DNA of 64,000 bases, from contig NC_035170.2 in the NCBI RefSeq assembly GCF_001659605.2, positions 26,082,020 to 26,146,019 of the forward strand, read 5' to 3'. The notes under the pieces were generated by a model. The model made no database searches, was not told the origin of the DNA, and was given only the letters and a program-made list of their open reading frames with translations. This document shows positions 29,096 to 60,284 of this stretch, piece after piece. The stretch's first letter is position 1, and every line of letters begins with the position of its first letter. Position numbers and translations under genes: made by a program. Origin of the DNA: Manihot esculenta. Taxonomy: Eukaryota; Streptophyta; Magnoliopsida; Malpighiales; Euphorbiaceae.

Positions 29096-29380
29096 TCAAC
29101 CAGATCCTCCGGGTGAGCTGTGACTAGGAGGAGCATTAATCCCTGTCAAAATCCTGCGGAGTTTTGGCATCTGATCTTCGTGAATAAAGTTGCCCTTTTG
29201 AATGTGGTCGGAAACATATTTTGACATCATCGGATGCTTTCCTGCATCTTCATAAGCATATGAATGGGTATTGATTCTCTGATTCCCAATTTTCTCTTTC
29301 CTTGGTTCCAATTCAAGTTGAATAGCAAGTGAGGATGAAACAGCAACAATCAAGATCATCAACATCACCAACTTCATCAT
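29096..29380 (-). CDS. Small secreted peptide precursor, family A copy 1 (94 aa)
   Basis: A signal peptide occupies residues 1-19 (MMKLVMLMILIVAVSSSLA). An acidic/basic pro-region contains YAYEDAGKH and KGNFIHEDQMP. RRIL is at 75-78, then the 16-residue tail TGINAPPSHSSPGGSG. RRIL/RRLL is the site cut by the plant site-1 protease SBT6.1 in RALF precursors, so the tail is a plausible mature peptide (inference). The Pro/Ser/Gly tail is reminiscent of PIP/PIPL, IDA or CEP type peptides but matches none of their signatures. A 5' UTR intron probably runs 29404-35413 (donor G|GTAATT, acceptor GTGCAG) and contains a 5.6-kb retrotransposon; the leader exon and promoter therefore lie beyond 35414. The TATA position seen in the sister copies reads TTAAAAA here, so expression may be impaired. 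Confidence 0.8.
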   Translation of the reverse strand: MMKLVMLMILIVAVSSSLAIQLELEPRKEKIGNQRINTHSYAYEDAGKHPMMSKYVSDHIQKGNFIHEDQMPKLRRILTGINAPPSHSSPGGSG

Positions 29381-29725
29381 CTACCTAGCTACTTTCAAAT
29401 TTGCTGCACTTTTGTTAATAATTAATGTATGAATAAGACGATGAGCATAAATAAAATTCAAAGTTAACAAAAAAGTAATATAGTTAAAAAGTAAAAACAA
29501 ATTGAAGGTCTTGCGCAGTGTATTGCAGTCTTCAATTCTTAAAAATTACACCTGTTTCTAAATATCAAAAATAAAAATATATGAAATATCTATCTAAACC
29601 GGAGTGATAAAGACACTTGTACATACTAGGTTTAACGTGAATCTGAATAAATAAAAGGTTTTAAATTCTACTTTTTCAATTTCCAATCCCAATTTTAAAA
29701 AACGACGCTTATAGTCTATGCTAGT

Positions 29726-30360
29726 TGTCACGGTTTCAGATTTTAGCAATCGTCAGGAACCGTGCGGCACTTGACTTGAACACCTTCAAGCCAAGTCAGC
29801 CTTAAGAATCACCTAATATCCTGTGAACATGAATACCCTGATTAGTCAATGTTATATAAATGAACAACGAAGCCAACAGACAGCATTCCATCAGAAGCCT
29901 CACAGTAGGTACAAAAGATAAGAACTGAACATGGAAATTCATGAACAGGCTACTTATTTTATTATAGGGGCAAAATAGTAATTATACATTATCATCGATG
30001 CAATCGTTACAATAATTCTCACCTCCCTTGTAGACAGGGGGGACGGTCTACAAGGAGTGAAGGAACAACTTGGATCTCCGTAGGCCTACGGTAGCCAACT
30101 GGGCCCAGCCCCAGCTGGTGGCCAACTAGTCACTCCCCCCTAAAGAGCCTTAAGAACAACTTGGCCTATGGCAGGAGGAGACATCAACATGTCTCATATG
30201 ACACCCCCCCTAAAACAAATACATGGAAAAGAATTACAACAAATTGTCTCGGCCATTATCTTCCTACTAATTTCTACTATTTTATCCTAATATTGCTTTC
30301 TAGGAATTCCAATGTTGGAAAATTACAGTTTTGGTCCCTGAAAACTCTATGACCCTGACA
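29726..30360 (-). repeat. 3' LTR (element orientation) of the LARD-like element
   Basis: 635 bp, TG...CA ends. It contains the same 63-codon chance ORF as its partner LTR. It differs from 34669-35303 at CGTCAGG/CGCCAGG, CACCTAAT/CACCCAAT and CTCCCTTG/CTCTCTTG. Confidence 0.95.
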
Positions 30361-30644
30361 CTCCCCCACTTAAACGGTCGACGTCCTCGTCGACTGGGTT
30401 TGTTGGGGTTCTTCAATCTTTGAGTCCGACATTCTTAGGCTTGTAGTGTGATTTGATCCCAGTCCTGCTCCATTAAATTGTTGGACAGCCTTAATCCTTA
30501 GTATCTCCTCCCAATTGATCTCTGTGGACTGCTACTTCTTAATGATGATGAGACTACAAAAGCTCTATCTTCTGGTGGTAAATGTTCTGCCCTTGATTCC
30601 TTAGACTACTGCAAACGGTGCTAGAAAGTATTGCTCTCCTCCTC

Positions 30645-30740
30645 TGCACGAACTTATTGCTTGAAGTCATTGATCACTGGTTCTTTTCTCTGCACGAACT
30701 CATTGCCTGAAGTCATTGATCACTAGTTCTTTTCTCCTAA
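30645..30740. repeat. Two-copy tandem repeat in the LARD interior
   Basis: A unit of about 48 bp beginning CTGCACGAACT(T/C)ATTGC and ending ATTGATCACT(G/A)GTTC occurs twice in a row. Confidence 0.7.
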
Positions 30741-33700
30741 ACCTGTCTCGCCATTACTCGTCTTTACTTGTCGACCTTACTCCTCGCCTCAAAAAGCATG
30801 ACCCCATCAGGCAACAAATCTATCAACCTGCATACACTCGTGCCACACGACATCGTGATTAACCTGTAATAGTCTCATAAGAAAGATTAGTACCACCCAT
30901 GTCAGATTCAAATACAAATTAGTATAGCAAGTCATCTAAAATACAACCCATTACAACTCAACAGGTGTGCCAATCACACTTGACCACTAAGACTTGAACT
31001 GATTTTATCCATTCCCTTGACATAACACCACATTATCCCACTTGCAGCGAAGCTCGGCGAATACTCCTAAGAAATCGGTGTCTCCATTGTCAATAGAGAT
31101 CACTCCACACTCTCTTTCTCTTTTGTCCGTTTTACAGTCCTCCCTTCATAAGCTTTGGTATTATGCTCACTTAATCTCCTTTTTCTCTCTCCCTAAGAAT
31201 GTAGTTAAAGCAAAATGCTTACAAAATGACACACATCACACACCAAATAACCACGACCACTGAACCCTATGAGCCGCAGAAGACTACTCAAAACAGCTAC
31301 TAAGATTGACTATACATAAAGCAATTAATATCATCATTATGATTCAATAATAAGAAATTACTAGAAGATACCCCCTTTATTATGCCGCTTTCATCATAGC
31401 TCTCAACATCGACTTGCCTCACCAACTTAGCTTAAGCAACCTGTGCTTCTCGACCTATCTCGGTCCTCTTCCATGTTGATCCACTTGTGAGAACTTTTGT
31501 TTAGCCCTGAGGTCTCTTTCCTGCTCAACAACAAGGGTAGGACTAAATTTGTCCTTTTAATTATACATTATTTTCCAATCCTCTTTTTAAGGAAGCTATA
31601 CCCTGTATGTTCACAATATCTGTTAGCACCAACTTGTCAAGTCCCACATCACGAGGAACCTGGCTCAATAATACACAAAATATCTAAAAAATGAATAACT
31701 AAAATGAAGTAAGACAAAGAATAATATCAGGAAACACCAAAGCACTATACTTGTCTGGTGTGAGAGAGTTCCCTCTTGTTAAATTCCCTTCTCTCGTACT
31801 GAATTGTCACTAAGGATCTCCACCTCTCCTCATTACCTTGAGCCCCACACTCCTTTGACTAGCTCACTGGTCCTCACTTTTGCCAGTTTCCACTTATCCT
31901 CCTTCTTGTGTCGTAGGACGAGTGAATTCCTTGCTTTCACAGCCCTGTTGCTCTCAATGGAATTTGATACAACTCTCGCCCAATGTCACCCTACATGCCT
32001 CTTGGTTGTCCGATCAAAATGTTCACTTACCTCAAAGAGAATGAACATGTGCTCTGCAATCATAGTTGGTTGGCACCTATCATCCATTGTTTCATACTCT
32101 TGTAATTGTTATTTTCCTTTTTAGGGTATGCCTTTCCTATTTTGATGCTCGTTTTCTGTATTCCTGTAAAGGATATGTTTTTGAGAGATGAGGCAACTAC
32201 CACTTTTGATCTATCACCATCTCATCCACACCAGTGTTTCACATGGATCCCTCAAGGCTCTTCTTTCTGCACTAACAACATTGCACAACCTAGCAAGAGT
32301 TACAGGAGCAATAACTTGCTCACTAATTACGCACCAGGATCAAGTAATTTATAAAAGAATATCATAACAGTTGATAACCATGGTACTCATTTCTCATAAT
32401 GACCACATTTATTTATTTACCTATTTTGTTCCACTTACTCACAAATAGACAATACTTCATCGAATGCTACTTTTTGTCGAGTTTACTCTTGCACCCCCTC
32501 GTGCTAGATAGCCACTAGGTTCTTCTTCACTACTCTTGCTTACCTCTCCTTTATCAAGGAACAATTATTGGACAATACAGAGATAACTTGTGCCTTTCTT
32601 GGGAGACGCCACACCCATTAACGTCTCGGATTCACTACAGGAAGGAATTGTGAAGTCCATCTTGCTTTTTGATGTCCTTGATTAAGCGAGTTTGTCAAAG
32701 GACATGCTCACATTAATCCCTGCACTCAAGTTGTCCGCTTTATCTCTATTTCCTCATATCATCCACTTCAGTTTTAGTCTTGATTCTAGCAATTGTGTAA
32801 ACGGTCCACGAATCTTGTATCTTGTGCCCGCTTCGTAGCATCAACTCCAATGTACCTGACACCGGGCAATGATATGTTGTTTTATACTAGGTCCGATTCT
32901 CATTTCCTCTCTTAAAGTCCTCTATGAGACTTTAAAGATCTCCTCGTCCGTCCCATGTCCCTTATTTGACACATAACTCGCAGAATATTTCCATCATGCT
33001 TGATCCCTTCACGCGAACAATACTACCTTAGACGAGGAGGAACAAGAAAATACAAACAACTTAGAGTTGACAACTCTATGATTTATACCTTATGTTCCCT
33101 CCTCCCTTACTCACCAAGTCCTTCAAGACCTTCGAAGCATTTTTGCCCAAGCAATTTGTAGAATAATATGGCTTTCTTCATAGAGAACACTTCATACTGC
33201 TTAGTTATGCCACTTCTATGTCATCTTGTTAATCACATTTCAGATCGCTCCCCCACTTACTGCTTTAGCCCATCTTCTTAGGCGGCTATCAATTAGATAC
33301 CAGAGTTGAACATCTCTTTAACTCCTTGGTAATAGAATCAACTCAATCTTAGTCATCCTTTGCTCTACACCATATTCAGGAAGGTTTTAAGCTCATCCAT
33401 GTCTCTTGAATCTGTTGTCACAATCCGCTTACTCTATTAAAGTCAAGTGCCACATTCTTTCGTGTTAGCCATATATGCTAAACAATTCCTTTATGTACTT
33501 TCCTTATGAACACTTTGTTGGAGTTTACCAACTCTCTTGAATAACGAATGTTACTTGTAGTAAAATTGAAGCTTACCATTTCATATCCCTTTTCTCATGT
33601 CCAGTGGGAACGCTCTCTATCCATAAGACTTTACACTTTCATCCTTGGAATAAATTTAGCTTTATAGTTCGATCACATAAATGTTGTTCTTTATATATAT

Positions 33701-33962
33701 GCACAATCACAATTCCCAATAATATTAACAAATAAGTTCATATTAAAGAGAAAATCATCTACCTCCATCCCACGACACAGATTGAGGTTCTGGGATTCCA
33801 CCATTGCCTACTTCATAGGCATTAGCTCGTAATGCACGCCATTAATAAATGTTCCTCTGGTTCACTTCTGAAGTATTGCTCATAGTCTCTCCTATGTTAT
33901 CTTTAATATTCTTGCACCATTCCTGCAAGCAAAAACAATACATGAGAGGCTTTTGCCTCACT

Positions 33963-34052
33963 TTTGTCTCAGAAGGCCTCTTGCCTCAATTCTATCTCAG
34001 GAGGCCTCTTGCCTCAATTGTGTCTCAGAAGGCCTCTTGCCTTAATTTTGAG
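33963..34052. repeat. Three-copy 32-bp tandem repeat in the LARD interior
   Basis: The unit 'TCTCAGAAGGCCTCTTGCCT' followed by CAATT-type spacer occurs three times with small changes. Non-coding in all frames as far as I can judge. Confidence 0.75.
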
Positions 34053-34668
34053 TGAAATGGTCTCGGGATTCTCAGATGGCCTCAAGCTCTATTGGCTCAT
34101 CCTCCCCCTTATCACTATACCTGAGGTCATTACTCCCTCTCCAAGGGCCACTAAAAGGAAGTAGGTAGCACCTAGTCATTACCCTCTCTCCAGAAGACAT
34201 TTCCAATGGAGTGTGCAGTACTAGGCTATTACCTCACTCCCAATGGTGTCCCGATGGAGCGTGCAGCACCTCTAGTTAATATGGCCAGTCTAGCCCGAAG
34301 GCTCATGCTTTTGTCTTCTTTGCCTCACAATGTGTTATTACTCCACGTAGCTTCATAATTGGGAGGTCACTACCTCCCCCTTTCCCCACTTTATGCTCAA
34401 GATCACCCCACTGGGTGTCATTCGCATGAAAGAGGCTTTGGATGGCCTCAATCTCTCGCCAATTTGGCTATCATTGCCAACAACGTTCATTTTTTTTTTT
34501 CCCATTTCTAGTGCCTCAAAGCACTTCTAACCAGAATCAATCTCCAACGCCTTCTCCTCTTAAGTGGTATAGACAACCCACCAGGCAGCACGATTCTCAC
34601 CCTTCTCTCAATGGTCTTCGTGCATTTCTTTTATATTGCTCGCAGATCTTTCTTGCTCTGATACCAAT

Positions 34669-35303
34669 TGTCACGGTTTCAGATTTTAGCAATCGCCAGG
34701 AACCGTGCGGCACTTGACTTGAACACCTTCAAGCCAAGTCAGCCTTAAGAATCACCCAATATCCTGTGAACATGAATACCCTGATTAGTCAATGTTATAT
34801 AAATGAACAACGAAGCCAACAGACAGCATTCCATCAGAAGCCTCACAGTAGGTACAAAAGATAAGAACTGAACATGGAAATTCATGAACAGGCTACTTAT
34901 TTTATTATAGGGGCAAAATAGTAATTATACATTATCATCGATGCAATCGTTACAATAATTCTCACCTCTCTTGTAGACAGGGGGGACGGTCTACAAGGAG
35001 TGAAGGAACAACTTGGATCTCCGTAGGCCTACGGTAGCCAACTGGGCCCAGCCCCAGCTGGTGGCCAACTAGTCACTCCCCCCTAAAGAGCCTTAAGAAC
35101 AACTTGGCCTATGGCAGGAGGAGACATCAACATGTCTCATATGACACCCCCCCTAAAACAAATACATGGAAAAGAATTACAACAAATTGTCTCGGCCATT
35201 ATCTTCCTACTAATTTCTACTATTTTATCCTAATATTGCTTTCTAGGAATTCCAATGTTGGAAAATTACAGTTTTGGTCCCTGAAAACTCTATGACCCTG
35301 ACA
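34669..35303 (-). repeat. 5' LTR (element orientation) of the LARD-like element
   Basis: 635 bp, adjacent to the tRNA-Met-type primer site on its left. It would contain the promoter for minus-strand transcription into the interior. Confidence 0.95.
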
Positions 35304-36019: not shown

Positions 36020-36051
36020 CAACTTCCATGTGAAATTGCCCTAATGGCGAG
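36020..36051 (+). promoter_or_regulatory. Leader exon of family B copy 1
   Basis: AACTTCCATGTGAAATTGCC and CTAATGGCGAG end at the donor GTAATT (36052). The UTR intron 36052-36159 (108 bp) ends TTGTCCAG. The same leader occurs before B copy 2 (donor at 41775) and as an orphan at 54375-54409. Confidence 0.65.
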
Positions 36052-36163
36052 GTAATTCTTTTTCTTAAAACCAAATTCATTCACACGTGTATGTATATGT
36101 ATGTATTTTAACATGTATATTTATAACAAAATCTGAAGCATACATTGATTGTTGTCCAGTTTG

Positions 36164-36505
36164 ATGATGAAGCTGCTGTTGCTAACGTTGATTATTGGTG
36201 GAACAATCCCTAGTTCTCTTGGAGTTGAACTTGAAAGCTTGGTTTCTCAAAGGGGAAGGTTTGGTTCACAAATTGCTGGGAAGAACAACTACTTGGGGTT
36301 TGAGGATCATGTGAAGAGAAACCATACGAGGGGAAATTTCAGAAGCAAACGTGAAAATATACAAACTGCTTTTGCTTCCAACCAAAATTTTGATGCCAAT
36401 TTCAGACACAATCACATGATAATGCCAAGACTACTTATGAAGCGATATCCTTGTCACTACACTTCTGGTGTTCCTAGTTGCAGTCCTCCTGGTGGTCATG
36501 GTTGA
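36164..36505 (+). CDS. Small secreted peptide precursor, family B copy 1 (113 aa)
   Basis: The ATG lies four bases after a UTR intron acceptor (TTGTCCAG|TTTG). Signal peptide 1 to about 20 (MMKLLLLTLIIGGTIPSSLG). The pro-region has YLGFEDHVKRNH, GNFRSKRENIQTA and DANFRHNHMIM, all shared with the other B genes. RLLMKR (89-94) precedes YPCHYTSGVPSCSPPGGHG, with Cys 97 and Cys 106 in C-x8-C spacing. A secreted, disulphide-closed peptide released by a subtilase is plausible (inference). Two-Cys plant phytocytokines such as CTNIP/SCREW are a possible comparison, but I see no exact signature match. It is arranged head-to-head with A copy 1. Confidence 0.82.
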   Translation: MMKLLLLTLIIGGTIPSSLGVELESLVSQRGRFGSQIAGKNNYLGFEDHVKRNHTRGNFRSKRENIQTAFASNQNFDANFRHNHMIMPRLLMKRYPCHYTSGVPSCSPPGGHG

Positions 36506-36544
36506 TTTTGCAGTGGGAAGGATGAGTGTGCGATTGGGAGAATT

Positions 36545-36910
36545 ATTATTTAATTTTTATAATATATAAAAATTTACTAGTTAATATCTCAGTTTTAAAA
36601 ATTATATTAAAATATTTTTAATATTTTAAAAAGCCTATTAATTAGTTATTCCATTAGTTTTAATTATTAAACATTATAAAAAAAATCTAAAATACTCCTA
36701 GAGCGACTAATTATTAAACTTTTTAAAAATATAATCTACTAATTAATAAATTTTTTAAAATTATAAAAATTAAATAATAAAATATTTAATAAAAAAATTA
36801 ATAGAAAAATTAACTAGTATATTTTTAAACGTTAAAAATATTTGAATATATTTTTTAAAATAGAAAATTAATTAATAAATTTTTTCATATTTTAAAAACT
36901 AAAGAGTAAT
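36545..36910. repeat. Long-TIR MITE, copy of an AT-rich family
   Basis: The left arm (ATATAAAAATTTACTAGTTA... AAAATATTTTTAATATTTTA) is mirrored as reverse complement in the right arm (TTTTTAAACGTTAAAAATA... ATTAATTAATAAATTTTTTC). Related copies lie at 44590-44940 and 47880-48240. It has no coding capacity. Confidence 0.65.
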
Positions 36911-39540
36911 TTTTTCAAATTATTAATATTGAATATATCACGGTTACTTTGCTCCTGATATTTCTGACTTACCCTAGTCGTCATCTTGTTTGTAAGAACT
37001 AAATGCTTGTCCGTGCGATATATAAGTATTTTTATTTTTAAAATTATTAATAAAATAAAAATATAATATATAAATTTAGATAAAATATTAAAAATAAAAT
37101 TTTGAGAACATATCTTATAAATATTTGTGAAAATTTTGTTCTATCATGCTCAAATATATTTTTGCTTTGGCTTCTGAATTTTAACAATAGAGATTTGTAA
37201 TGATTTTATATTTATAGACAATTTTTTTTATTAAAATAGAGTATATTATTTTTTAATATTATTTTTATTTGACATTCATTCATGTTTATATACTTATGGT
37301 TGTAACTTTTTGTATTCATTATTATAATTTATTAATTATTTTTCATTTTACTTGTCATTTACATATTTATATTCATATTATAATTCAATTTTATGTTGCA
37401 GCTTTAATTACAAATTCAATGTTATAATATTTAAATAAATTTAGATTTAAATAAATATTTTATAATCATATCAATGAGTAATTAATAATAAAAATATGAC
37501 TATATATTTAATAAGACCAATAAGAAGTATTGTTTCAGGAAAAAAATATCAACAATTAAGAGTTAAATATAACTAAAAAGTAAATATAACATGTGTTAAA
37601 ATTATGATTAACTGGTTAATTATTACGTGTTTTTAATTATTTTTATTTATTAATTTTAAATTTAAGAATTTTTTTAAAATTTTTTTTCTCACACATATAT
37701 ATTAATTGTATTTAAATTTTTTATGTTAAATATTAAAAAAATAAAAGGTTATATATTTATTAGGAATAATAGTAAGATTAATAAATTTGATTAAATATGC
37801 ATATTAATTATTATTAGATTGAAGTTATTTTCTTTTAAAAAAATAGAATTATCTATTAATTAATAATAATAATAATAAGATAGAGAAAAAAATAGATAAT
37901 TAAAAAAATCAAGTAAAATGACAAATAGTTAAATTGAATTTTGGTTAAAATTGATTTTTGTTCATAACTAAAATTAAGCCAAAATTATAAATCAACAGAT
38001 ATGAAGAGTTGAGGGATGTCAAGAACAGTTGCAGAGTTGAGTTCCACGTCTTCTGCTACAAACTCTGATTTGAACTTCTAAGATCATCTTTCCTTTCCAC
38101 AGTAGACACAAGTTCGAGCAACAATGGCTCAACGAAGCTCATCACGTGCGTGTAAATGTTTCAGACCATGTAATTCAATCCTTCAGTCCATCTCGAACTT
38201 ACATATTACTAAATTAAACCAATTTGGTCTAACAATTTTTCTTATTGCACAACCTAAAATTAGATGGAAATTTTTTCTATTTTATTTTTACTTTTTTTTT
38301 TATTATTTTTTTACCTTCCTCTCATTTTGTTTTCTGTTTTATTTAATAAAAAATAAACATTATTTTATGTACAATTTCCCACTAGATAAAATTTGCAATC
38401 TCAATCCTCATACAAATTTTTGTTAAATATAAATTTATTTTAAGATGATAAAATTATATTATATATTTTAGTAATCTTTAGTTTTTTCATAATTTAATTT
38501 CAAGGCTAATTAATCCAAAAAATTAACATTTATATATATTTGTATTTTAATTTAAATTTTTTAATTTTAATTGTTTAACTGGATGACATATATATTATTA
38601 TTATTTTAATTAATTAATCGATGGAAAAAAATCTAACATTTATTTAATTTTATATTTTAATATAAACGTTGTTTATATTTAAATATAATTTTAGTCAATT
38701 TTTAAAAATAAATAATTTAATTATTAAATATATAATTTATATATTTAACAGTAATAAATTTTATTTTATAATAATAATTATAAATATTTTATAAAAAATA
38801 TATTATTTAATTTAAAATAATAACATATATAAAATAATTAAAAATATTATATTTATTATAAATTTTTTATAATTATTAATGCAAAATAAATTTTATTTAC
38901 TGTTAAAATTACCAACTGCATATTTAACTGTAAGATTATTATTAGATTTAAAATTAAATACGTATGAATTAATATTATTTTATATATAAAATTAGTTTAT
39001 ATTTAAAAAAATAAAATATTAAATTTGTCATTGTATTTGACAGATACATTTTGATATTTCAAAATCAATTAAAAAATGTAAATGTTGAGATAATTAATTT
39101 AAAATTTAAATATTTGGATTAAAGTCTAAAATAATATAAATATTAGATTTTTTCAATTCATTTGGTGATTAGTTTATATAAATAATAAAAACAATAATAC
39201 GTTAAACAATCAAATTGTTATGTAACACTATCAAATTTAAAAATTTATAAATTAATTAAATTTATATAAAAATGCAAAATTGACCAATCAAATCAAAATT
39301 AAAAGATTTAGATTAAAATATAAGTACATGCAAATATTTAGCCTTTTTAAATTAATTGGTCTAATTTTAATGATAATTATTTTTTAATCATATGCTATTA
39401 TATAGAATTTAGCAATTTATAGTTTAATTTAATTTTTTATGTATAAAAGTTAGATATAATAGTGATGAAGGCCTTTTATCTTAAACGACCAACACAAAGA
39501 AATTAGAGAATTTCTAAGAAACTTTGAGAGAGATGGCTTT
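36911..39540. other. AT-rich intergenic DNA between array units
   Basis: No supported gene. A slightly GC-richer stretch at 37990-38170 gives a short ORF start (MAQRSSSRACKCF) that soon runs into poly-T-encoded Phe/Tyr and is not credible. Confidence 0.5.
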
Positions 39541-39544
39541 GAAT

Positions 39545-39955
39545 TAGAATGAGCTTGCCTAATTAGTATAACTTTTTGCGGTGCTGTTGAGTTAATAATG
39601 CTCATCACCTCTAATTAATTAATATTAATAATTAATGTATGCATAAGATGATGAGCAAGAATAAAGTTCATGTTAATAACAAAAAAAATAATAATAATAA
39701 TTAAAAAGAAAAGGCAACAGCAAATCAAAGAATTACCAGATCTTCCCTAATTGGCATCAAACAGGCAACTTGTTCTGGTGCTGTTAAGTTATTATCAAGT
39801 CTGGTACTTGCTCATCACTACTTCCCTTTGATTTCTGAATTTTCCAGGAAGGTGGCGTGGCATCAAAATTCCGAGCAGAAGCAATCAATATTCAATATTC
39901 AATAAACTAGTTAGTCCAAGTCTACCAAAACTACCCCATTAATTCTTTTTGGAAA
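39545..39955 (-). pseudogene. Two ghost promoter/leader copies of family A genes without coding sequence
   Basis: At 39553-39612 the words GAGCTTGCCTAATTAGTATA and GCGGTGCTGTTGAGTTA match the region just upstream of A copy 3. At 39630-39850 a second copy has the UTR intron body (TAATGTATGCATAAGATGAT), the donor context CAAAGAATTACCAGATCT, and GGTGCTGTTAAGTTATTATC. No A coding sequence is found next to either. The following bases (CCAAGTCTACCAAAACTACC, 39918) match the distal upstream region of A copies 3 and 4. Confidence 0.7.
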
Positions 39956-41064
39956 ATTTTAATTTGCAATGCAAAATTTTGACTATTTAAATTATTTTGT
40001 CCAATCAAAATTTAAAATTGCTGAAATCATAGTAGATTCTGCTATTTACAAAAATATATTAATAACTTTTAATGATTTGGGCGGATAAGCATTATCCTGT
40101 CTCTTAATTCAGGGATAATTTTTATTTAAATTATTTAATTTTTAGTGTATTTTTAATTTAATTACTCAATTGTAATTTTTTTCTTAAAACTTCTTAAATT
40201 TTAGTTTAATTTCATAAACTCCTTTTCACCTATTACTACAGATTTCAAGTTACAATAAATAAAAAATATAATTTTTCTTTTCTTTCTAATCATCCATCTT
40301 CCATTTTTATTCTCTCTTGCCTTTTTATTTTATTTCTTTTTTTGTATTTACTCACATAATTTATTAATTATTTTATTTTAATAGTTTAATTAATATTATT
40401 ATATTTTATTTTTAAATCACACTAAAAAATTTATTAATAGTAAAAATATTAATTAGATACAATTTTATTTTAAATATTAATAAATAATTTTTAGATATTA
40501 ATTTAGATAATTTCATAGGCAAAGTTTTAGTATTTATGCAATTGTATTGTACATATTATTTATTAATTATTTTAAATATATAATATTTTTATTTTTAAAA
40601 GAAAATTATAAAATTTTATTAAAATAAATTATTTATTAATTATTTTATTTTTTAAGTGTTTCAAATATCAAAAAATTAAAAAGTATTTTTATAAAAATTA
40701 TTTTTTGAAATAAATGGAAGTTAGACGTATTTTCCAAGTCCATATGTCATGTGGTTCCAAATATCATTAGTGTGTTTAGACTTTATTTTCTTTTAAAATA
40801 AAAATTAAAAATTAGGATAGTAGAATCTGAAATTTTTTAAAGATATTTAAATGTATTTATCTTCAGACTAATTCTATAAGTGCGTGTTTAGACTTTATTA
40901 TCAAACGTATAATAAAGATCAGTCACATCCATATTATATGCAACTTGATAGAATATCACCCAAGTAATTTACAAAAATTATTAAATAATTATATTTGCTT
41001 GTCTTTTTTTTTTCTGTAAAATTAAAAATAAAATGAGAAGGGTGATTCATTTTCATGTATTTTT

Positions 41065-41330
41065 TTTTCTTAGCCTCATAATTCTTGTTAGAGCTTGACA
41101 ATTACTTCAACTTTATATCTGGAAAGATTAATATGAAATAATTTTTTTTTTAATTTTATAAATTCAGAATTATGTATATGATGAAATACTACTGAAAATG
41201 AATTAAATTTTATTGGTATAACATAACTCTCTTCTCACAAATGAGTGGCTAATATAAAGCGGATAAGAATCAAATTGATGTGCATACATTAATGCAGTGG
41301 GAGTTGGTGGGAAGACTTTGAAAATGCTTT
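41065..41330. repeat. Array-unit upstream block, copy also at 48375-48620
   Basis: Shared words include GTTAGAGCTTGACAATTA, GGCTAATATAAAGCGGATAA and ATCAAATTGATGTGCAT, with similar spacing at both places. It lies between ghost A (39.9 kb) and B copy 2, so it is part of the original duplication unit. Confidence 0.7.
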
Positions 41331-41898
41331 TCGTTTCAAAATATTTTTCATAGAAAATGTTTTTATTCTTTAATTTTAATTTAAAAAATAAAATTTATTA
41401 ATAAATTTATATATAAAGATTTTAATAAAAGTTTTAATATATGAAAAATAATTTTTTTAAAAGAGAAAATTATTTTTTTTTAAATGGGTTACTTTTTTTA
41501 TTAACTAAAAAAATATTTTTTTGTTGATTAAAATTTTTTGAATACTCAAAACATTAAGAAAATGAAAAATATTTTTTTAAAAAATATTTTTCGTAAAATA
41601 AATGGAGTCTAAGAGATTTAATTCTTGAATGTTCCCAAAGTCTAATTTTGGTAATAGCAAAAAAATATAATCTCATATTCATATATAGTACCCATAAACT
41701 ATGATGAGGAAGACAATTTAGGCAAACTATATGTTCAGAAACTTCCATCAAAATTAAGTTGCTCTAATGGGAAGGTAATTAATTCTCAACACTAAATTTC
41801 ATGTATATTTTTTCTTTTGCACATGCATATATGAAATCTGAAATATATATTCTTCGTTGTCCAGTTCGATTACAAGGCTGAAGTTGTTGCTGCTGCTA

Positions 41899-42463
41899 AT
41901 GTTGATTATCGATGGAACAATCCCTAGTTCTCTTGGAGTTGAACTTGAAAGCTTGGCTTCAAAAAAGGTGCGAAAATTTTGATTTAGTAAACTGTAAATT
42001 AATAATATTTTATTTAATATTTAAGTTCAAATAATTATTTAAATTTTTTAAATAATATCTGTTTAAAATTTAAATTATTTATTATTGTTGTATTTAGATT
42101 TTTCAATTATATTTGAATAGCAATATGATAAATATCAACTCTTTTATCTTCTTCTCTTTTCAAAAAAACCCACAAAAGGGAAGGTTTGATCTTCAAGGTG
42201 AAGGAAAATCAAATACTTGGAAGAAGAGCTACTTGCGTTTTGAAGATCATGTGAAGAGAAACCATATGAGGGAAAATTTCAGAAGCAAACATGAAAATAT
42301 ACAAACTGCTTTAGCTTTCGACAAAACTATTGATGCCAATTTCAGACACAATCATATGATAATGAGAAGACTACTACAAAAGGGGGCATCATTTTCTAAA
42401 CCTATTCCTTGTCATTATACCACTGGTAAAGGTAGTTGCAGTCCTTCTGGTGGTAGAGGTTGA
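41899..42463 (+). pseudogene. Family B copy 2, start codon lost and coding region split
   Basis: The leader donor (41775) and UTR acceptor (41864) are kept, but the usual ATGATGAAG start reads ATTACAAGG (41869-41877). The first in-frame ATG is at 41899, inside the signal-peptide core. After ELESLASKK a 211-bp insert (41968-42178) with GT...AG ends interrupts the frame at phase 0. Coding then resumes GRFDLQGEGK, RFEDHVKRNHMRENFRSK and ANFRHNHMIMRRLL, ending KPIPCHYTTGKGSCSPSGG with C-x8-C. If spliced and started at 41899, a shortened but still hydrophobic leader would remain. Decay versus a working variant cannot be settled from sequence. RRLL here is the canonical site-1-protease motif. Confidence 0.65.
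41968..42178 (+). other. 211-bp insert or new intron in family B copy 2
   Basis: It begins GTGCGAAAATTTTG and ends CCACAAAAG, flanked by AAAAAAG and AAAAGGGAAGG. B copies 1 and 3 have no intron here. The phase-0 GT...AG ends fit splicing, but the acceptor has a poor polypyrimidine tract (poly-A next to it). Confidence 0.5.
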
Positions 42464-44490: not shown

Positions 44491-44589
44491 CTTAATGAGA
44501 AAACAATATAATAAACATCAAGTACATAAAAGTATGTTACTCCGTATTATTAAATAAATTATCCTATGTAGATAAAAAGAAAGAAAATT

Positions 44590-47320: not shown

Positions 47321-47879
47321 ATATTCATAAACTACCCCATTTATTCTTTTTCAAAAATTTTAATTCCTCTTTATTTCATAATTTTATCTAATTTTTTTTT
47401 ATCTTAAAATATAGTCTACTTCATTTAATTATAGTTAAGATATAAATTAATAATTATAACTTTATTTTATTTTATTTTATTTTCAACACAATTTAAAATT
47501 AAGGTTTCGTTTATTTACAAAAAATAATTTATATTAAAAAATACTTTTTTAATAGAAAATATCTTTTTATAAAATAATTTATTTTTTATTGTTTAATTAT
47601 AATTTTAAAAATAAAATATATTAAAATTTTTTATATAGTTGTGTTAATAATATTTTCAACGTATAAAATAATTTATTTAAATAAGTTATTTTTTAAAATA
47701 AATTAATTTTTTTAAAATAATTATTTTTTAAAAATAGTCATTTTTCCGAAAAAAATCAATATATTACTCTTTTAATCAATACATTTATTTTTTCTCCTTC
47801 AATTCTTAGTCCAAGCTTAATTACAAAGTCTACAATTCAATCTCTTCCATTCTTTTTTTTTTTTTATATATTATTAATA

Positions 47880-48240
47880 GAAGTGAAAAATTCATTAATT
47901 GATATTTTAATTTTAAAAAATATATTAAAATATTTTTGACATTTTAAAAAGTCTAATAATTAATTTCTATATTAATTTTATCCATTAAATGTTATAAAAA
48001 AGTCTAAAATGCCATGATATGCAAATATTAATTAATAAATTTTTTAAAAATCTGAGGGACTAATTAATAAATTTTTAAAAATTGTAGAAACTAAATAATA
48101 AATAATATAACGATAAAATTAACGAAAAAAATTAGCTAGTAGACTTTTTAAAATGTTAAAAATATTTTAATGCATCAAAATTAAAAAATTAATTAACAAA
48201 TTTTTTCAATATCATAGGAATTAAATAGTAATTTTTATAT
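47880..48240. repeat. Long-TIR MITE, best-preserved copy
   Basis: The left arm includes ATTAAAATATTTTTGACATT and AAAAAGTCTAATAATTAATT; the right arm includes the inverse, TAGACTTTTTAAAATGTTAA and AATATTTTAATGC. Arms are about 90 bp, too long for typical Stowaway or Tourist elements and more like Mutator-type MITEs. The flanking duplication is not resolved. Confidence 0.7.
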
Positions 48241-48374
48241 TGATATTATTATTAAGCCTTTTAAAGTCTAGCCAGGCAAAAAAATATTAAATAATTAAAT
48301 TTGTTTTATCTTTCTCTGTAAAATTAAAAATAAAATTAAATTTATTTTCATGAATTATTTTTCTTATCCTCATA

Positions 48375-48620
48375 ATTTTTTGTTAGAGCTTGGCAATTAT
48401 TTCAACTTATCTTGAAAAAGATTAATATGAAATACAATATTTTTTTTTATTTATTTTGGAAATTCACTATTATGTATGTGATGAAATACTAATGAAGGGG
48501 AATTGAATTTTATTAGGATAACATAACTGTCTTCTCGCAAATCAGTGGCTAATATAAAGCGGATAATAATCAAATTGATGTGCATGAACATCGTGGAAGT
48601 TAGTGGGAAGACCTAGCCTG
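48375..48620. pseudogene. Ghost of a B-gene upstream block, cut by a solo LTR
   Basis: It matches 41070-41320, the spacer upstream of B copy 2, and pairs with A copy 2 on its left. The expected B leader is not here; the solo LTR at 48813 and about 2 kb of AT-rich DNA follow, and an orphan B leader appears at 54375. Whether these belong together is inference. Confidence 0.55.
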
Positions 48621-48812: not shown

Positions 48813-51491
48813 TATAAGAGCCCGGAAACCGGACCGCTACCGGCGCTAGGATTCAAGTCGGCTTAAGGCCGCCGGAACCCGTAGTAAGTCTGCTGTAAAC
48901 TCTGTGTACCTGTTCAATCCCATACATGATCATATATTTCTATAAAAATTTGAACTTTTTCATTATCCAAGTTCGACCTATGCATGCACTTAGGGGTGAG
49001 CATTCGGTCGGTTCGATTTAAAACCGAACCGAACCGAATAAACAGAAAACCGAAATTTTAGTGTTTATGAAAACCGAACCGAACCGATTTTGGTCAGAAA
49101 TCGAACCGAACCGAACCGGTTTGATTAGGTTCGATTCGATTCGGTTTGATCGGTTTCGATTTTTAATAATTTTTTTATTTTTTACACTTTATTTTTAGTA
49201 TTTTAAAATTTAATTAATATTAAAATAAATTTAATTAAAATATTTTAATATTAATATAATTTAATTTCTCTATATTATTGAAAAAACATATTATTATTAC
49301 TAATCGGTTCGGTTCGGTTTTTTCAGTTTTTTTCTGATCAAAACCGAACCGAACCGAAATAACCAAAATTTCTGAAAATAAAAACCGAACCGAACCGAAA
49401 TGTATAAAAACCGAATCAAATTTTCAAATCGGTTCGGTTCGATCGATTTTTTCGGTTTGAACCGACTACTGCTCACCCCTACATGCACTAATATAGAACC
49501 ACATACTAGAGTCCTCATCAAATACTCTAGATGGGTCATCAAGCTGGATTTCATCATAAACATTTCATTTCATTTATAAAAATCATGTATATAAAAAGGG
49601 ATTAAACGTATTCTAGGGCCAAGCACAATACTATAACTCCATATACATTATATTACATGACATCATCTCTGTACATTACATAATTTTTCTTTACATCATT
49701 GCTTTACATCATCATGTCCACTACTATACATACTCTTAAACTTTACCCTTTGCTATACTCTGTCTTCTGTCTGAGGCTCTGAAATATGGAGATTAGGGAG
49801 AGGGGTGAGCTACTAGAGCCCAGTGAGCAGAAACATAAAAAAACATTTAAATACATATGCTATTATGGAATGCATCACATCACAAGTAATCACATTCGGA
49901 CGGACGGATCCAAAATTCCCTCGGCTCTGTGCCCGGCCCGAAAAGGAGCTCCTCAAGACTTCTGTTACACATAAACATGAACTCTGTGCCCGGCCCTCAT
50001 GGGGCTCCTCAGGACTTCATTGACTCTATATCCCAAGGGCTAGTGGATAATACTCTGTGTCCGTCCCCATTCACAAGAAATAATGCAATGCGTCATATTC
50101 GTGATTTCTAATGCGATACAACCTAGTATACACATGGCATTGATGATGCATGATTCATGCTAAAACTTTCATTTAATTTAAAATCATAAGTTAGTTCCAC
50201 TCACCTCTAGCAACTGCTGATCACCTCTGAAAAAACTAACTCTGGGGGCCTCCTTGGTTCCTCAGGTCCGCATCTACACATGTCGACTCAAATGAGGTAC
50301 CAAACATACTCTAACATAACCATAAACATCTCCCCAAAACTCCCCTAAAACATCATAAACATGCATGGAAAAACAGGTAAAAGAAGGCTGGACAGGGCAC
50401 TTTCGGCGGCAGGTTCGGCGGCCGAAAGTCCCTCCAGAGCCGAAAGTCATGCATTTTTGGGGGCAAGGTTCGGCGGCCGAAAGACCCTCCAGAGACGAAA
50501 GTCCCAACCTTCGGCGGCCGAAACTCTCTGCCAGAGCCGAAAGTTCAAACTTTCGGGGGCGAGTTTAGGCAGCCTAAACAGCCTCCTCAAGGGGTTCGGC
50601 GGCCGAAACTCCCTTTACCTGAGTTCTCCAAGATGGCAGAACTCGAGTCCAAAACACATACTCAGCCTCCACAACCTTTCCCAACACTCCACACATGCAG
50701 CCAACCTCTCAAAAACATGCATATACCCTTATCTATGCACATAGGGGCTTAAAACAAGCTTAAAACCCCAAAAACATCATCATAGCATAAATGGTACATA
50801 AACCCTCACATGCACAACTCATGCAACTCATGCATGCCTAACCCTTTTTCTTCATAAAACTCACTTAAAACATAAAGGGAGGTGAGGATCCATGCTTACC
50901 TCTTGAAGAACGAGATGATTGATGATCCAAACTCGGAGATGTCAAGGAAAACCGATCCAAACTCTCCAAGCCTCAAAACTTAGCTTCTTTGCTTAAAACC
51001 TTCAAAACCAAGTTAAAACTCTTTAAACCTTTGCAAGAACTTGAAGAAAACACGAGATCAACCAAAGGAGGGTATGAACTCACCTTGGTTCGGAAAGAGG
51101 AATAAACTTTACTCCTCTGCTGACCAAGGGGACTTTTATAGGTGACTTGGTCAACCACTTCCGGCGGCCTAACCTGCACCCGCAACTCTACCACATTCGG
51201 CGGCCGAACATGGCTTTCGGGGGCAGCAAAACTAAGCCACTTTCGACGGCCGAACTTCACTTTCGGCGGCCGAACTTCACTTTCGGCGGCCGAACTTCTC
51301 TTTTCCCTCCTTGATCTTTTCCTTTCAAAACTCATTTTTCCTTAATCAAAACATAAAAATATGATAAAACATTTTGAAAAACCTCTGTTTTACCCTTCAG
51401 GAAGGCTCCGACATCCGTGACATTCCGGATTCTAACGGAAATACCGCCGGAAAGTAGGAATTCCGATGCCAGAGTCTAGCCGGGTATTACA
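48813..51491 (-). mobile_element. Solo LTR of the gypsy family, reverse orientation, carrying a MITE
   Basis: It starts TATAAGAGCCCGGAAACC (first bases decayed from TGTAACGACCCGG) and ends GGGTATTACA. It is flanked by GTAAG at 48808-48812 and 51492-51496. Net of the MITE and its duplication it is about 2180 bp, matching the copies at 138-2279 and 11075-13270. TTCGGCGGCCGAA-type palindromes lie at 50395-50610 and 51175-51300, the latter with near-identical tandem units (CACTTTCGGCGGCCGAACTT). Confidence 0.92.
48991..49481. mobile_element. hAT-type MITE (491 bp) inside the solo LTR
   Basis: Terminal inverted repeats TAGGGGTGAGCA / TGCTCACCCCTA are flanked by an 8-bp duplication CATGCACT (48983-48990 and 49482-49489), which is the hAT signature. 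The interior is a quasi-palindrome of CGGTTCGGTT and AACCGAACCG words around an AT-rich centre. It has no coding capacity. Its LTR host shows the empty-site sequence in the sister LTR at about 11243-11252 (GCATGCACTA). Confidence 0.93.
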
Positions 51492-53591: not shown

Positions 53592-53760
53592 GCGGAGTTG
53601 GCATCATTTTCTAATTTTGTCAAGCCAGCTTACCGAAATATTACTTCAAAGAAAAAAATGAGTGGATAAATGCGGAGTTGGCATCATTTTCTAATTTTGT
53701 CAAGTCATCTTGCCCCAATATTACTTCAAAGAAAAAATGAGTGGATAGTTGAGATCAGTA
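53592..53760. repeat. Tandem duplication of an array-unit spacer segment
   Basis: The roughly 78-bp unit TGCGGAGTTGGCATCATTTT...TTACTTCAAAGAAAAA...GAGTGGATA occurs twice in a row. Single relatives lie at about 56150-56230 and 59500-59540. Confidence 0.8.
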
Positions 53761-54039
53761 ACATTCTTATGACATGCAGCTTTGATGTAATCTCCTAATT
53801 AATTTATAAATAATGTTAAAAATATATATTTTTTAATTTTTTAGGCTAAATAATAAAAAAATAAAAATTAAAAAAAATAAAATTTAATATCTCTATCAAA
53901 TTTATTCTAATGGAGTCACTATTAAATTACAAATTAATATATTTTAATAACGTAAAATTCGTGACGCGGGTCTTTTAACTTTAATAATGTTACATATACA
54001 CACACAAATATCTCATTGATCAAGAAATTATCCTGTGCT

Positions 54040-54371: not shown

Positions 54372-54520
54372 AACAACTTCCATCTCAATTAAGTTGCTCT
54401 AATGGAAAGGTAATTAATTCTTAACACTAAATTGTCAAGTTTTTTTTTCTTGCACGTGTGTATTTGTTAATTTTTTTTTCAAAGTTTTAATTTAATTTTG
54501 ATGATCATTATTTTTTTTTA
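54372..54520 (+). pseudogene. Ghost of a family B gene: leader exon and intron start only
   Basis: AACTTCCATCTCAATTAAGT and GCTCTAATGGAAAG end at donor GTAATTAATTC (54410), then TTAACACTAAATTGTCA and CTTGCACGTGTG, as in the UTR introns of B copies 1 and 2. The sequence then jumps to TTTTGATGATCATTATTTT, which in B copy 2 lies 3' of the gene (42625). The whole coding sequence is deleted between intron and 3' flank. Confidence 0.72.
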
Positions 54521-54982: not shown

Positions 54983-55285
54983 TCAGTTACGACCGGGTCC
55001 ACCAGGTCCGCTGTGACTAGGAGGAGCACCACCCGCGGTTAGAATCCTGCGTGGTTGTGGCATCTGATGATAAACATTGTGTACAAAGTTGGCATTTTTA
55101 ATTTGGTGGGAATCATATTTTCCCAACATCACATGCTTTCCTGCATCTTCTTCTTCATAGGCAAAATTTGTAGCAATGATCCTCTGATTGCCAAATTTGT
55201 CTTTCCTTGCTTCTACTTTAAGTTGAATAGCGAATGAGATTGAACCCACGACAATCAACATCATTAGCATCACCAACTTCATCAT
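54983..55285 (-). CDS. Small secreted peptide precursor, family A copy 3 (100 aa)
   Basis: Signal peptide 1-19 (MMKLVMLMMLIVVGSISFA). The pro-region has EARKDKFGNQRI, FAYEEEDAGKH, KYDSHQIKNANF and HNVYHQMPQP. RRIL is at 79-82, and the 18-residue tail is TAGGAPPSHSGPGGPGRN. The tail is the one in the array closest to a PIP-like SGP..GxG pattern. There is no 5' UTR intron: the leader runs straight from CAAGCTCTTCTGATTG to the ATG, as if the intron had been deleted. A TATA element (CTTATAAAAA on the minus strand) lies near 55378-55387. Confidence 0.85.
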   Translation of the reverse strand: MMKLVMLMMLIVVGSISFAIQLKVEARKDKFGNQRIIATNFAYEEEDAGKHVMLGKYDSHQIKNANFVHNVYHQMPQPRRILTAGGAPPSHSGPGGPGRN

Positions 55286-56144: not shown

Positions 56145-56330
56145 TTAATGCAGAGTTTACAATTTTCTGATTCTGCCCAGTCGTCTTTCCCAAATATTAC
56201 TCCAAAGAAAAATGAGTAAAGACTTAAAAAGGGTATAGTTGAGATTAGCCACATCCGTATGACATGCCAACTTGATATATTTAATCTCCTAATTAATTAA
56301 TTTAGAAATAATGCTAAAAATTCAATCTCG
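56145..56330. repeat. Array-unit spacer segment, copy between A3 and A4
   Basis: ATTACTCCAAAGAAAAATGA, GTTGAGATTAGCCACATCCG and GACATGCCAACTTGATATAT match 46425-46505, 53690-53800 and 59510-59595. In the last case it lies upstream of B copy 3, so this marks where a B partner of A copy 3 would have been. None remains. Confidence 0.65.
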
Positions 56331-56667: not shown

Positions 56668-56671
<4 letters not shown>

Positions 56672-57992: not shown

Positions 57993-58239
57993 ACGTATCA
58001 TTATATATAGTGATCATTAATTAAACATTAGGTCTTATTATTGTATATAGTGATCAATAATTAAACATTAAGTATTAGTAAGAATCGATGATAGACACTT
58101 ACAGTGAAAGTAAGAAAATATGCAAATTTACTGACTTTATTTCGCGATAAGTGTGTTTAATTGAATTTTGAAAAGTCCTGAATTCAAACAATCTAATTTT
58201 GAGAAGTTTCCTCGTGTGTGTGTGTCTGCATCTTCCTGA

Positions 58240-58521
58240 TCAATAACCAGGTCCACTTGGTGTGGTGCGACTAGGAGGAGCATCACCATTTCTTAGAATC
58301 CTGCGTAGTTGTGGCATCTGATCATCATTGTGTACAAAGTTGGCTTTTTTAATTTGGTGGGGATCATATTTTTCCATCATCATATGCTTTCCTGCATCTT
58401 CTTCTTCTTCATAGGCAAAATTTGCAGTAATGATCTGTTTCCTTGCTTCCCCTTTAAGTTGAATAGCAAATGAGGATGAAGCAGCAACAATCAACACCAT
58501 TAACATCACCAACTTCATCAT
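58240..58521 (-). CDS. Small secreted peptide precursor, family A copy 4 (93 aa)
   Basis: Signal peptide 1-19 (MMKLVMLMVLIVAASSSFA). The pro-region is shortened after EARKQ (the KxGNQR motif is lost) but keeps NFAYEEEEDAGKHMMMEKYD and NFVHNDDQMP. RRIL is at 73-76 and the tail is RNGDAPPSRTTPSGPGY, ending in Tyr. The start has no UTR intron: the text upstream retains TTGTTATTCTCTGATTTG, an altered version of the donor region GGTAATTCTTTGATTTG, so the donor was lost with the intron body. A TATATA element lies near 58609. It forms a divergent pair with B copy 3 (59913), the best-preserved pair in the array. Confidence 0.85.
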   Translation of the reverse strand: MMKLVMLMVLIVAASSSFAIQLKGEARKQIITANFAYEEEEDAGKHMMMEKYDPHQIKKANFVHNDDQMPQLRRILRNGDAPPSRTTPSGPGY

Positions 58522-58943
58522 CTACCAAAATCAAAATCAAATCAAATCAGAGAATAACAAGGTCTTGCCTAACTCTTTGAGGTGCTGTTGAGTTATATCA
58601 AGCCTGGTATATAAGGGGTTCAATATTTCTCATCACTTCTTCCTTTGAAAATTTTCTGAATTTTCGAGGAAGGTGGCATGGCATCAAAATTCAATGCTAT
58701 CAATCAAATATCAATGTTTAATAGATTTATGATTCTATAGTCCAAGTCTATCAAAACTATCCCATTAATACTTTTTGAAAAATGTTAATTTGCAATACAA
58801 AATTTTGACTATTAATTAAACCAACAGAAAATATCTTATGACTCTTAATAAGCCTACAGGGCATAATTATAAAATAAAAAGAAATGATTATTATCCACCC
58901 ACTCATCTATACATTAACTCTGTCTTTTCCTCTCACTCAAGCC

Positions 58944-59069
58944 ATGGATGCCTTTTCTTCTATCATCTCTTTTTTTTCATTCTTTTTCTTCTTCTACTTC
59001 TTTTTGCCCTTTTCTGTACTCTCAAATATTGATCAAGAGTGCTGCATGATTTTCCAAATTATGAGATGA
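58944..59069 (+). other. Small ORF in the A4/B3 shared upstream region (41 aa), related copy at 45413
   Basis: MDAFSSIISFFSFFFFYFFL is followed by a short polar tail. A related start, MDTLSSIIFQSFFVSL, is found at 45413-45481 in the spacer remnant. Conservation of the ATG and first eight codons over two copies could reflect shared DNA only. It could be a signal-peptide exon of another small gene, but there is no downstream partner. Confidence 0.3.
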
Positions 59070-59912
59070 TTATTAAGTGGATTTCATCTCTTTTTTATAT
59101 AGGGATCCACATTTGTTTATATTAGATCCAAGTAAATATTTTTCTAAGTTTTTCGTGACTGTGTTTAGTGTCGGTATTGACTAATTAATAAAGTGAGAGA
59201 CTGATAATACAAGTCTATCCAATTAATTGAAAAAAATTTGCCTTCATCTTATCCACTATAAATTCAAAATATAAATAAGTAAATCTCTTTACAAATTAAA
59301 AATAAATGATATCAACTTTTTATATCTTAGACTCATTCACCATAAAATAAAAGCGGATAAAAACAAAAAATAATAATGAATATATTTCTAAGTAATAACG
59401 GATTAGTAACAAATATTAGCTTAAAAAATAAATTAGTAACAAATCCATTATTTTTTTTTTTTATCAAATTTAGTATTTTAATATTCTGATCTTGTCAAGT
59501 CGTTGCCAAAATGTTACTCCGAAGAAAAATGAGTTGAGACTTAAAAGTGCATTGTTAAGATTAATCACATCCGTATTACATGCAACTTGATATACTCTCC
59601 TAATTTTCTTAATTGGTGGGCTATAAAATTAGAAAATAATTTTCTTAATAGATGGATTAAAATATTCATTAATACAATATATTTACACTTAGACGAATAA
59701 AGTATACATTCAGTATATTTAAATTTAATATATTTATATTAAACTAATTAATAATTTAATTAGAATTACATTTTAATAAAAATATATATAATCTCATAAT
59801 AATTCTTCTTTTCTTAACACTAAATTTCACCTACACCTTACTTTTTTCTTTTTTTTCCTTTCATACATGCATATATAAAATCTGAAGTATATAATGTCTG
59901 TTGTCCAGTTTG

Positions 59913-60284
59913 ATGATGAAGCTGCTGCTACTGCTAATGTTGATTATTGGTGGAACAGTCCTTTGTTCTCTTGGATTTGAACTTGAAAGCTTGGCTTCAG
60001 AAAATAAAAGTTTTGGTTCTCAAGTTGCAGGGAAATCAAATGCTGGGAAGAAGAGCTACTTGGGTTTTGAAGATCATGCGAGGAGAAATCATATGAAAAA
60101 TATGATAGGAAATTTCAGAAGCAAACATGAAAATATACAAACTGCTGCTTCAGCTTCCAACCAAAATGGTGATGCCAATTTTAGATACAATCATATGATA
60201 ATGAGCAGAAGCCTACTACAAGGAATTCCTTGTTCTTCTATTCCTGCTAACCCTAGTTGCAGTCCTCCTGGTGGTCCAAGTTGA
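59913..60284 (+). CDS. Small secreted peptide precursor, family B copy 3 (123 aa)
   Basis: The ATG lies four bases after TTGTCCAG (59901-59908), the UTR intron acceptor in the other B genes; the matching donor upstream is not recognised. Signal peptide is about 1-20 (MMKLLLLLMLIIGGTVLCSL). The pro-region has KKSYLGFEDHARRNH, NFRSKHENIQTA and DANFRYNHMIM. SRSLL precedes QGIPCSSIPANPSCSPPG, with Cys 107 and 116 in C-x8-C. The loop residues (SSIPANPS) differ fully from copies 1 and 2 (HYTSGVPS, HYTTGKGS) while the Cys and flanking SP residues are kept, which suggests diversification of the mature peptide. Confidence 0.82.
   Translation: MMKLLLLLMLIIGGTVLCSLGFELESLASENKSFGSQVAGKSNAGKKSYLGFEDHARRNHMKNMIGNFRSKHENIQTAASASNQNGDANFRYNHMIMSRSLLQGIPCSSIPANPSCSPPGGPS

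Follow-up and report, generated by a model that had tools for sequence, protein, structure and literature searches.

A probable branch of CTNIP/SCREW-type peptide precursors, duplicated as divergent pairs in cassava

The window studied here is a stretch of 64,000 nucleotides of cassava (Manihot esculenta) chromosome 10 (C10:26082020-26146019, within a 640-Mb assembly). It harbors seven precursor genes of two types that face apart, A (four genes, minus strand) and B (three genes, plus strand), an arrangement proposed in an initial annotation and borne out by open reading frames (ORFs) for all seven. Judged by sequence, we lean toward regarding the cluster as lineage-specific, phytocytokine-like precursors that derive from the CTNIP/SCREW type and whose tails have diverged; genes of rubber tree and from elsewhere in cassava appear to tie the precursors to that type. 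Most simply, a Euphorbiaceae lineage of CTNIP/SCREW-type precursors would have been duplicated in cassava as divergent pairs, with tails that drift or diversify.

Homology of A and B and the wider family

Comparison of profiles of A (six sequences) and B (three sequences) aligned the leader and the pro-region of both types (hhalign probability 92.7, E = 4e-7), and a tblastn search of the 64-kb window with A3, run with the low-complexity filter and composition correction off, found B3 over nearly its full length (30% identity, E = 2e-5). A and B are therefore distant homologues and make up one family, not two, so that the "undescribed family or two" of the initial annotation gives way to a single family with a CTNIP/SCREW connection. 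When the combined A and B alignment was compared with 5.8 billion proteins, 12 were returned at E ≤10, namely A2, B1, B2, B3, three Logan relatives of A, four proteins of rubber tree (Hevea P0008 to P0011), in which the family is thus also present, and one of cassava chromosome 7 (P0012), the Hevea and chromosome 7 proteins at E values from 1.3e-16 to 2.3e-5. Hevea P0011 in turn matched 24 places in the cassava genome at E ≤10 (20 at E ≤6e-5, some overlapping), including B1 to B3 and an open locus at C10:26262305 (66% identity, E = 2.3e-40). P0010 matched 66 places, of which the 18 at E ≤0.005 were all on chromosomes 10 and 7 and those from E = 0.5 onward mostly look like background.

The chromosome 10 cluster extends past the window to about 26.26 Mb (26164388-26164767, 26224186, and 26262305); the first of these places lies in two overlapping frames and is therefore frame-shifted or mis-assembled, and at C10:26224186 neither a leader nor a second cysteine was recognised. 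A second cluster, of mixed orientations, occupies C7:3.192-3.262 Mb and contains one compact divergent pair, 3.2587(-)/3.2615(+), and scattered relatives are found on chromosome 7 at 9.45, 10.74, 10.97, and 26.43 Mb. In a tree, A formed a single clade (support, 100/98), as did B (98/93), and B grouped with Hevea P0008 (93/95). The grouping of A with three cysteine-free chromosome 7 genes (86/82) is not relied on: the branches are long, and those genes share leader-exon DNA with B, no match to the A genes having been seen. One chromosome 7 relative (L065:115-393, minus strand; C7:3248214-3248492) has a cysteine-free tail, PPSGPSGPSPSNHH, which we take to be reminiscent of PIP/IDA-type ends.

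Pfam searches with A, B, and their relatives yielded only chance matches below the cut-off (B3 to DUF3185, E = 0.26; P0008 to CT_584-like, E = 0.2; P0011 to BCL_N, E = 0.034, and FapA, E = 0.075), and a PDB sequence search with P0011 only one stretch of bacterial EmrA (E = 0.32). No paper title on this cluster was found in the literature searched, most subscription journals being outside its coverage.

The CTNIP-type core in relatives and in window tails

Less derived relatives have a two-cysteine tail (PCTSIPGHPSC, PCTHIPGRGKGC, and PCTHAPGSVSC). Weak matches of the P0010 tail (E = 0.015 to 0.25) pointed to genes of chromosomes 3 and 15, with tails that include VPPSGASGCTNIPGTGGPPC and VPPSGASGCTHIPNTGGPSC, and these led on to chromosomes 5 and 1. 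A core profile was built from eight cassava CTNIP-core genes out of 10 places (L057, whose frame is split, and L063 were excluded, and L061 contributed only the first of its two cores); one of the eight has the literal core GCTNIPGTGGPPC. Two cores of the form NPC..(V/I)PGQ...C per CTNIP-core-like ORF were observed in L061 (C1:37337612) and L063 (C1:37334765). Upon scoring of 17 tails on this profile, each with 2,000 shuffles, no shuffle was as high as the tail of P0010 (35.1 bits; best shuffle, 13.7) or L012 (18.3 bits; best shuffle, 11.1). By inspection, the PPS of A perhaps corresponds to the PPSG before the CTNIP core in relatives.

Several results weigh against a CTNIP/SCREW origin. P0011 (18.1 bits; best shuffle, 16.6) and L011 (9.7 bits; best shuffle, 8.9) also exceeded all 2,000 shuffles, by narrow margins, and the remaining 13 of 17 tails, the seven window tails among them, scored no better than could be expected from theirs: shuffles scoring as high as the tail numbered 1,754, 330, and 810 of 2,000 for B1, B2, and B3 and 70, 1,586, 948, and 81 for A1 to A4, respectively. 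The score of P0010 lacks independence, as three profile genes had been retrieved with it as the query, which does not apply to L012, P0011, or L011. The cassava core genes were themselves identified by the printed motif and cysteine spacing rather than against an Arabidopsis CTNIP sequence. Between the tail cysteines lie eight residues in B1 to B3, compared with 9 to 11 in the eight core genes and 9 in Hevea P0010. Finally, the ratio of nonsynonymous to synonymous change (dN/dS) over the whole coding sequence was 0.53 to 1.08 in nine within-family pairs and 0.77, 0.94, and 1.17 for the B genes versus L011, and neutrality is therefore not excluded by that measure.

Measured by the CTNIP description (two cysteines 9 to 11 residues apart, a C-T-N-I-P core, and a precursor of <150 amino acids with an N-terminal signal peptide), the window genes show the third feature, with 93 to 131 amino acids and a hydropathy peak of 2.2 to 2.85. 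A1 to A4 have no cysteine in the tail, B1 to B3 pass the spacing filter only if spacing is taken as distance (9), and none of the seven tails is distinguishable from shuffles by its core. The window genes lack two CTNIP features that were tested and are not classed as CTNIPs; since relatives keep the core and window tails do not, the link to CTNIPs runs via precursor homology and not via the tails of the window genes.

A duplicated A(-)/B(+) unit

Region 28600-60600 was searched by local alignment with the compact unit 58000-60560 and with 39500-42750; the highest scores in the control, 30 block-wise dinucleotide shuffles, were 46.4 and 68.0 bits, respectively. The listed blocks were above the shuffles for both references (50 to 552 and 99.6 to 218 bits, respectively), in support of the earlier proposal that an A(-)/B(+) unit with a common spacer was duplicated. 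About six units were traced (Table 1), in which 7 of 12 gene slots were kept and 5 were lost, and further A and B copies survive as relics beside the seven open genes: unit 1 comprises A1/B1, unit 2 a lost A and B2, unit 3 spacer remnants only, unit 4 A2 and a relic of B exon 1, unit 5 A3 and a B-upstream block only, and unit 6 A4/B3. Other blocks above the control pair 40973-41316 with 48279-48612 (318 bits), 41338-41584 with 45566-45808 (159 bits) and with 47556-47729 (103 bits), 40566-40697 with 45682-45807 (76 bits), and 40541-40697 with 44590-44733 (68.9 bits). These extra blocks between 40.5 and 48.6 kb may be spacer or AT-rich repeat; most remaining matches of the 39500-42750 reference in AT-rich DNA stay at or below 68.0 bits.

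Among the matches listed for the whole genome, those of A1-region DNA (five places) and the credible ones of the A3 protein (four places; a fifth match had an E value of 1.4) were all inside the window. The units thus do not resemble a dispersed transposable element.

The A4-B3 spacer is a candidate bidirectional promoter; counting promoter motifs in the spacers was uninformative. The wide gap between A1 and B1 is due to a long terminal repeat (LTR) element that inserted recently between these divergent genes, and once it is subtracted about 1.1 kb of spacer is left, comparable to the 1.4 kb of A4/B3. The LTRs are 99.53% identical (three differences in 638 aligned bases, K = 0.0047), which gives an insertion age of 0.18 to 0.36 million years with the two rates tried, and the element lacks a long ORF, the longest listed ATG-initiated ORF inside it encoding 91 amino acids.

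Constraint on the copies

Values of dN/dS were 0.55, 0.57, 0.84, 0.95, 0.81, and 0.95 for the A pairs, 0.54, 0.53, and 1.08 for the B1-B3 pairs, and 1.44 for L019 versus L023. The initial annotation had named a ratio near 1 across copies as a result that would refute it, a level that only part of the nine within-family pairs approach: 0.84 to 1.08 was reached in four (A1-A4, A2-A3, A3-A4, and B2-B3). These four pairs fit the idea that the cluster is a dying side branch, with open tandem copies under little or no constraint and no peptide signal today, which we judge unlikely. The loss of 5 of 12 gene slots in six units would fit as well, as would the absence of A1, A3, and A4 from the proteins returned by protein-database searches with family queries; some of these three may therefore be unannotated.

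Tail conservation points the same way. The B tail was less conserved than the pro-region (52% versus 72% identity; 10 of 1,000 column permutations were as extreme), likewise when L011, P0008, and P0011 were added to B1 to B3 (13 of 1,000), and so was the tail of four chromosome 7 rows (0 of 1,000), of which two closely resemble each other; the difference was not significant in A (190 of 1,000) or in four CTNIP-core genes (735 of 1,000). The usual pattern of peptide hormones is the opposite.

Against a dying branch, all seven window genes are open, and all 27 gaps in pairwise coding alignments have lengths divisible by three, compared with 9 of 34 gaps in A upstream DNA (counts from pairs, which are not independent). 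When substitutions alone were simulated, at an assumed 0.13 per site, the probability of all four A genes staying open was 0.003, and that of all three B genes was 0.007. The leader had a dN/dS of 0.26 to 0.49 in six of nine pairs, though 0.75 to 1.22 in the other three, and an NCBI spliced model exists for B2.

Convergence as an alternative

That an independent Euphorbiaceae peptide family acquired a PCTxIP..C tail like that of CTNIPs by convergence is, in our estimate, an improbable alternative. It would fit the tree, in which the family and four cassava CTNIP-core precursors fall into two clades set apart by a branch length of some 1.6 changes per column (1.28 + 0.31 on the two sides of the midpoint root), and it would fit a likeness that is confined to the short core, with eight rather than 9 to 11 residues between the cysteines in three of the four matching tails and with two of the four clearing their shuffles narrowly. 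It sits poorly with the wide margins of P0010 and L012 over their best shuffles and with the presence of RGPVPPS, as well as CTHIP, in both P0010 and the chromosome 15 gene.

Gene models and neighboring features

The secreted-precursor anatomy described initially was found in all seven proteins, the uniform MMKL start was not (A2 starts with MKL). A hydrophobic N-terminal leader, called from hydropathy and not by SignalP, is present in each, with a best 15-residue mean hydropathy of 2.2 to 2.85, compared with at most 0.82 further in. B1 and B2 have a short first coding exon further upstream (ATGGCGAG or ATGGGAAG, followed by GTAATT). Splicing of B1 with this exon gives MANES_10G108325v8, letter for letter, and splicing of B2 with removal of 211 bp likewise gives P0005, the NCBI spliced model LOC110623909; B2 is thus complete rather than a near-gene. 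Both database proteins are listed for Manihot esculenta, in agreement with the placement of the window in cassava. Since B1 and B3 are uninterrupted at the corresponding position, the 211-bp insert looks like a gained intron. A B-type exon 1 was not recognised upstream of B3, whose start may be its internal MMKL.

Two Logan proteins resemble A genes of the window. P0006 differs from A1 at 3 of 93 residues, by inspection, and P0001 is 89% identical to A3. The body of P0001 is A3-like and its tail A4-like (DAPPSQTIPSGPGY), a mosaic that suggests either tail exchange between copies or a copy left unassembled.

Table 1. Features of the A/B cluster, by position in the window
Feature	Position	Strand	Remarks
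A1 precursor	29096-29380	-	94 amino acids; unit 1; ORF
LTR retroelement	29726-35303	.	In unit 1 spacer, outside the gene system; 5.6 kb; target site duplication CTAGT
B1 exon 1	36044-36051	+	ATGGCGAG, donor GTAATT; splice gives P0004
B1 exon 2	36160-36505	+	Tail YPCHYTSGVPSCSPPGGHG; unit 1; ORF 36164-36505
Upstream region of lost A	39610-39994	-	Unit 2; 76% identity; 39610-39894 versus A2 upstream, 76%, 218 bits; 39777-39994 versus A4 upstream, 76%, 172 bits
B2 exon 1	41767-41774	+	Splice with exons 2 and 3 gives P0005
B2 exon 2	41865-41967	+	Predicted signal peptide
B2 insert/intron	41968-42178	+	211 bp, AT-rich, GT..AG; only in B2 among the three window B genes
B2 exon 3	42179-42463	+	Tail IPCHYTTGKGSCSPSGGRG; unit 2; B2 otherwise placed at about 42125-42463
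A-side distal spacer remnant	45196-45437	.	Unit 3; 86.9 bits (70 bp, 87% identity) and 50.0 bits (50 bp, 82% identity; marginal against the shuffled maximum of 46.4)
B-upstream remnant	46427-46502	+	Unit 3, B coding lost; 57.2 bits
A2 precursor	46697-46993	-	98 amino acids; unit 4; ORF; protein database entry P0007
A2 upstream block	47037-47327	-	Unit 4; 218 bits to 39610-39894
B-upstream block	53686-53800	+	Unit 4; 57.2 bits
Relic of B exon 1 and donor region	54375-54466	+	Unit 4, B coding lost; 84% to B2 41740-41833; 99.6 bits versus shuffled maximum of 68.0
A3 precursor	54983-55285	-	100 amino acids; unit 5; ORF
B-upstream block	56161-56294	+	Unit 5, no B coding found; 110 bits
A4 precursor	58240-58521	-	93 amino acids; unit 6; ORF
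A4-B3 spacer	58522-59912	.	Between start codons; 1391 bp
B3 precursor	59913-60284	+	123 amino acids; tail IPCSSIPANPSCSPPGGPS; unit 6; protein database entry P0003

Beside A1 lies a Pro/Cys-rich ORF of 159 amino acids without a Pfam match (28217-28696, plus strand), and an ORF at 25466-26164 (plus strand) resembles, by eye, the C-terminal part of an auxin response factor. A retrotransposon gag ORF occupies 61127-62470 (plus strand; Pfam Retrotrans_gag, E = 1e-14). At 43435-44007 (minus strand) a copia-type RVT_2 remnant matches weakly, below the Pfam cut-off. A TTCGGC/GCCGAA-rich repeat, probably a transposon family, occurs in divergent copies in both orientations at 137-2281, 11073-13270, and 50061-51491. 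An AT-rich element at 36541-36930, 44581-44978, and 47885-48255 is also found near chromosome 7 genes (L019, L021, and L023; up to 278 bits) and is probably a dispersed repeat.

Proposed mechanism and significance

An ancestral CTNIP/SCREW-like gene would have given rise to two divergent copies, of which B keeps the two-cysteine tail and A has lost both cysteines, and the A(-)/B(+) unit would then have been duplicated to about six copies that decayed unevenly. The leader would be cleaved off on passage through the secretory pathway, and the pro-region, which ends in RRIL or RRLL, would be cut near the basic pair. The C-terminal 15 to 25 residues would then act extracellularly, their target being a leucine-rich-repeat receptor kinase, for B probably a relative of HSL3. 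The divergent tails may reflect ligand diversification or relaxed constraint. CTNIP4 depends on its two cysteines for activity and for binding to HSL3 (PMC9191895), so that by analogy a cysteine-free A would be unlikely to be a plain HSL3 agonist; it may have its own receptor, antagonize B, or be idle. A bolder idea, to which we give little credence, is that A and B are a co-regulated ligand pair expressed from one divergent promoter, in which B would be the two-cysteine agonist of an HSL3-type receptor and A would compete with B or use a different receptor, each unit being a signal-plus-modulator module that was duplicated and diversified in Manihot.

CTNIP/SCREW peptides are reported to modulate stress signalling and water loss in Arabidopsis (PMC13056886, PMC13157962), and the CTNIP paper states that over 40% of its CTNIPs were unannotated (PMC9191895). 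If cassava and rubber tree indeed hold an expanded, paired, and diversified branch, its ligand variants, some with and some lacking the cysteines on which CTNIP4 depends, would form a naturally occurring series for mapping of receptor specificity, and its members would be candidates for regulating how a staple crop responds to drought and disease.

Comparison with known peptide families

The tails resemble those of the PIP/PIPL, IDA/IDL, and CEP families in being Pro/Gly/Ser-rich, and those of A hold PPS and end Gly/Pro-rich. The PIP signature is SGPSxxGxGH, and IDA peptides end in RHN, in a PPSxPSxRHN-type end. By inspection, neither was present in the tails of A1 to A4 or B1 to B3.

PROSCOOP/SCOOP genes are likewise arranged in tandem clusters and encode fast-evolving secreted precursors with short C-terminal S-x-S/T peptides, and their description, not a comparison with SCOOP sequences, sets them apart here. 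That the window genes, with tandem copies and tails with S-x-S/T and Gly/Pro, are SCOOP-like is barely credible: S-x-S/T indeed stands, by inspection, at the same place in all seven tails (SHS in A1 and A3, SKS in A2, SRT in A4, and SCS in B1 to B3), yet it is easily attained in Ser-rich tails and is weak evidence, homology leads to CTNIP-core genes instead, and the window is from Manihot, whereas an analysis of 350 plant genomes found SCOOPs and MIK2 in Brassicales only (PMC11331138).

CTNIPs, as presented in the portion of the CTNIP paper drawn on, are named for conserved residues and were filtered for two cysteines 9 to 11 apart; Arabidopsis has CTNIP1 to CTNIP5, with HSL3/NUT as the receptor, and CTNIP4 is perceived by HSL3 with BAK1 (PMC9191895). 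That portion does not mention divergent paired clusters. A further mark of the CTNIP/SCREW type is transcription that stress or elicitors induce. The window precursors are longer than CTNIP4 (93 to 131 versus 70 amino acids), and their tails differ in failing the core profile, in the spacing of eight in B, and in the lack of cysteines in A. They are like CTNIP/SCREW precursors in being short and secreted, with a C-terminal tail, and their less derived relatives share the C-T-x-I-P core and the second cysteine.

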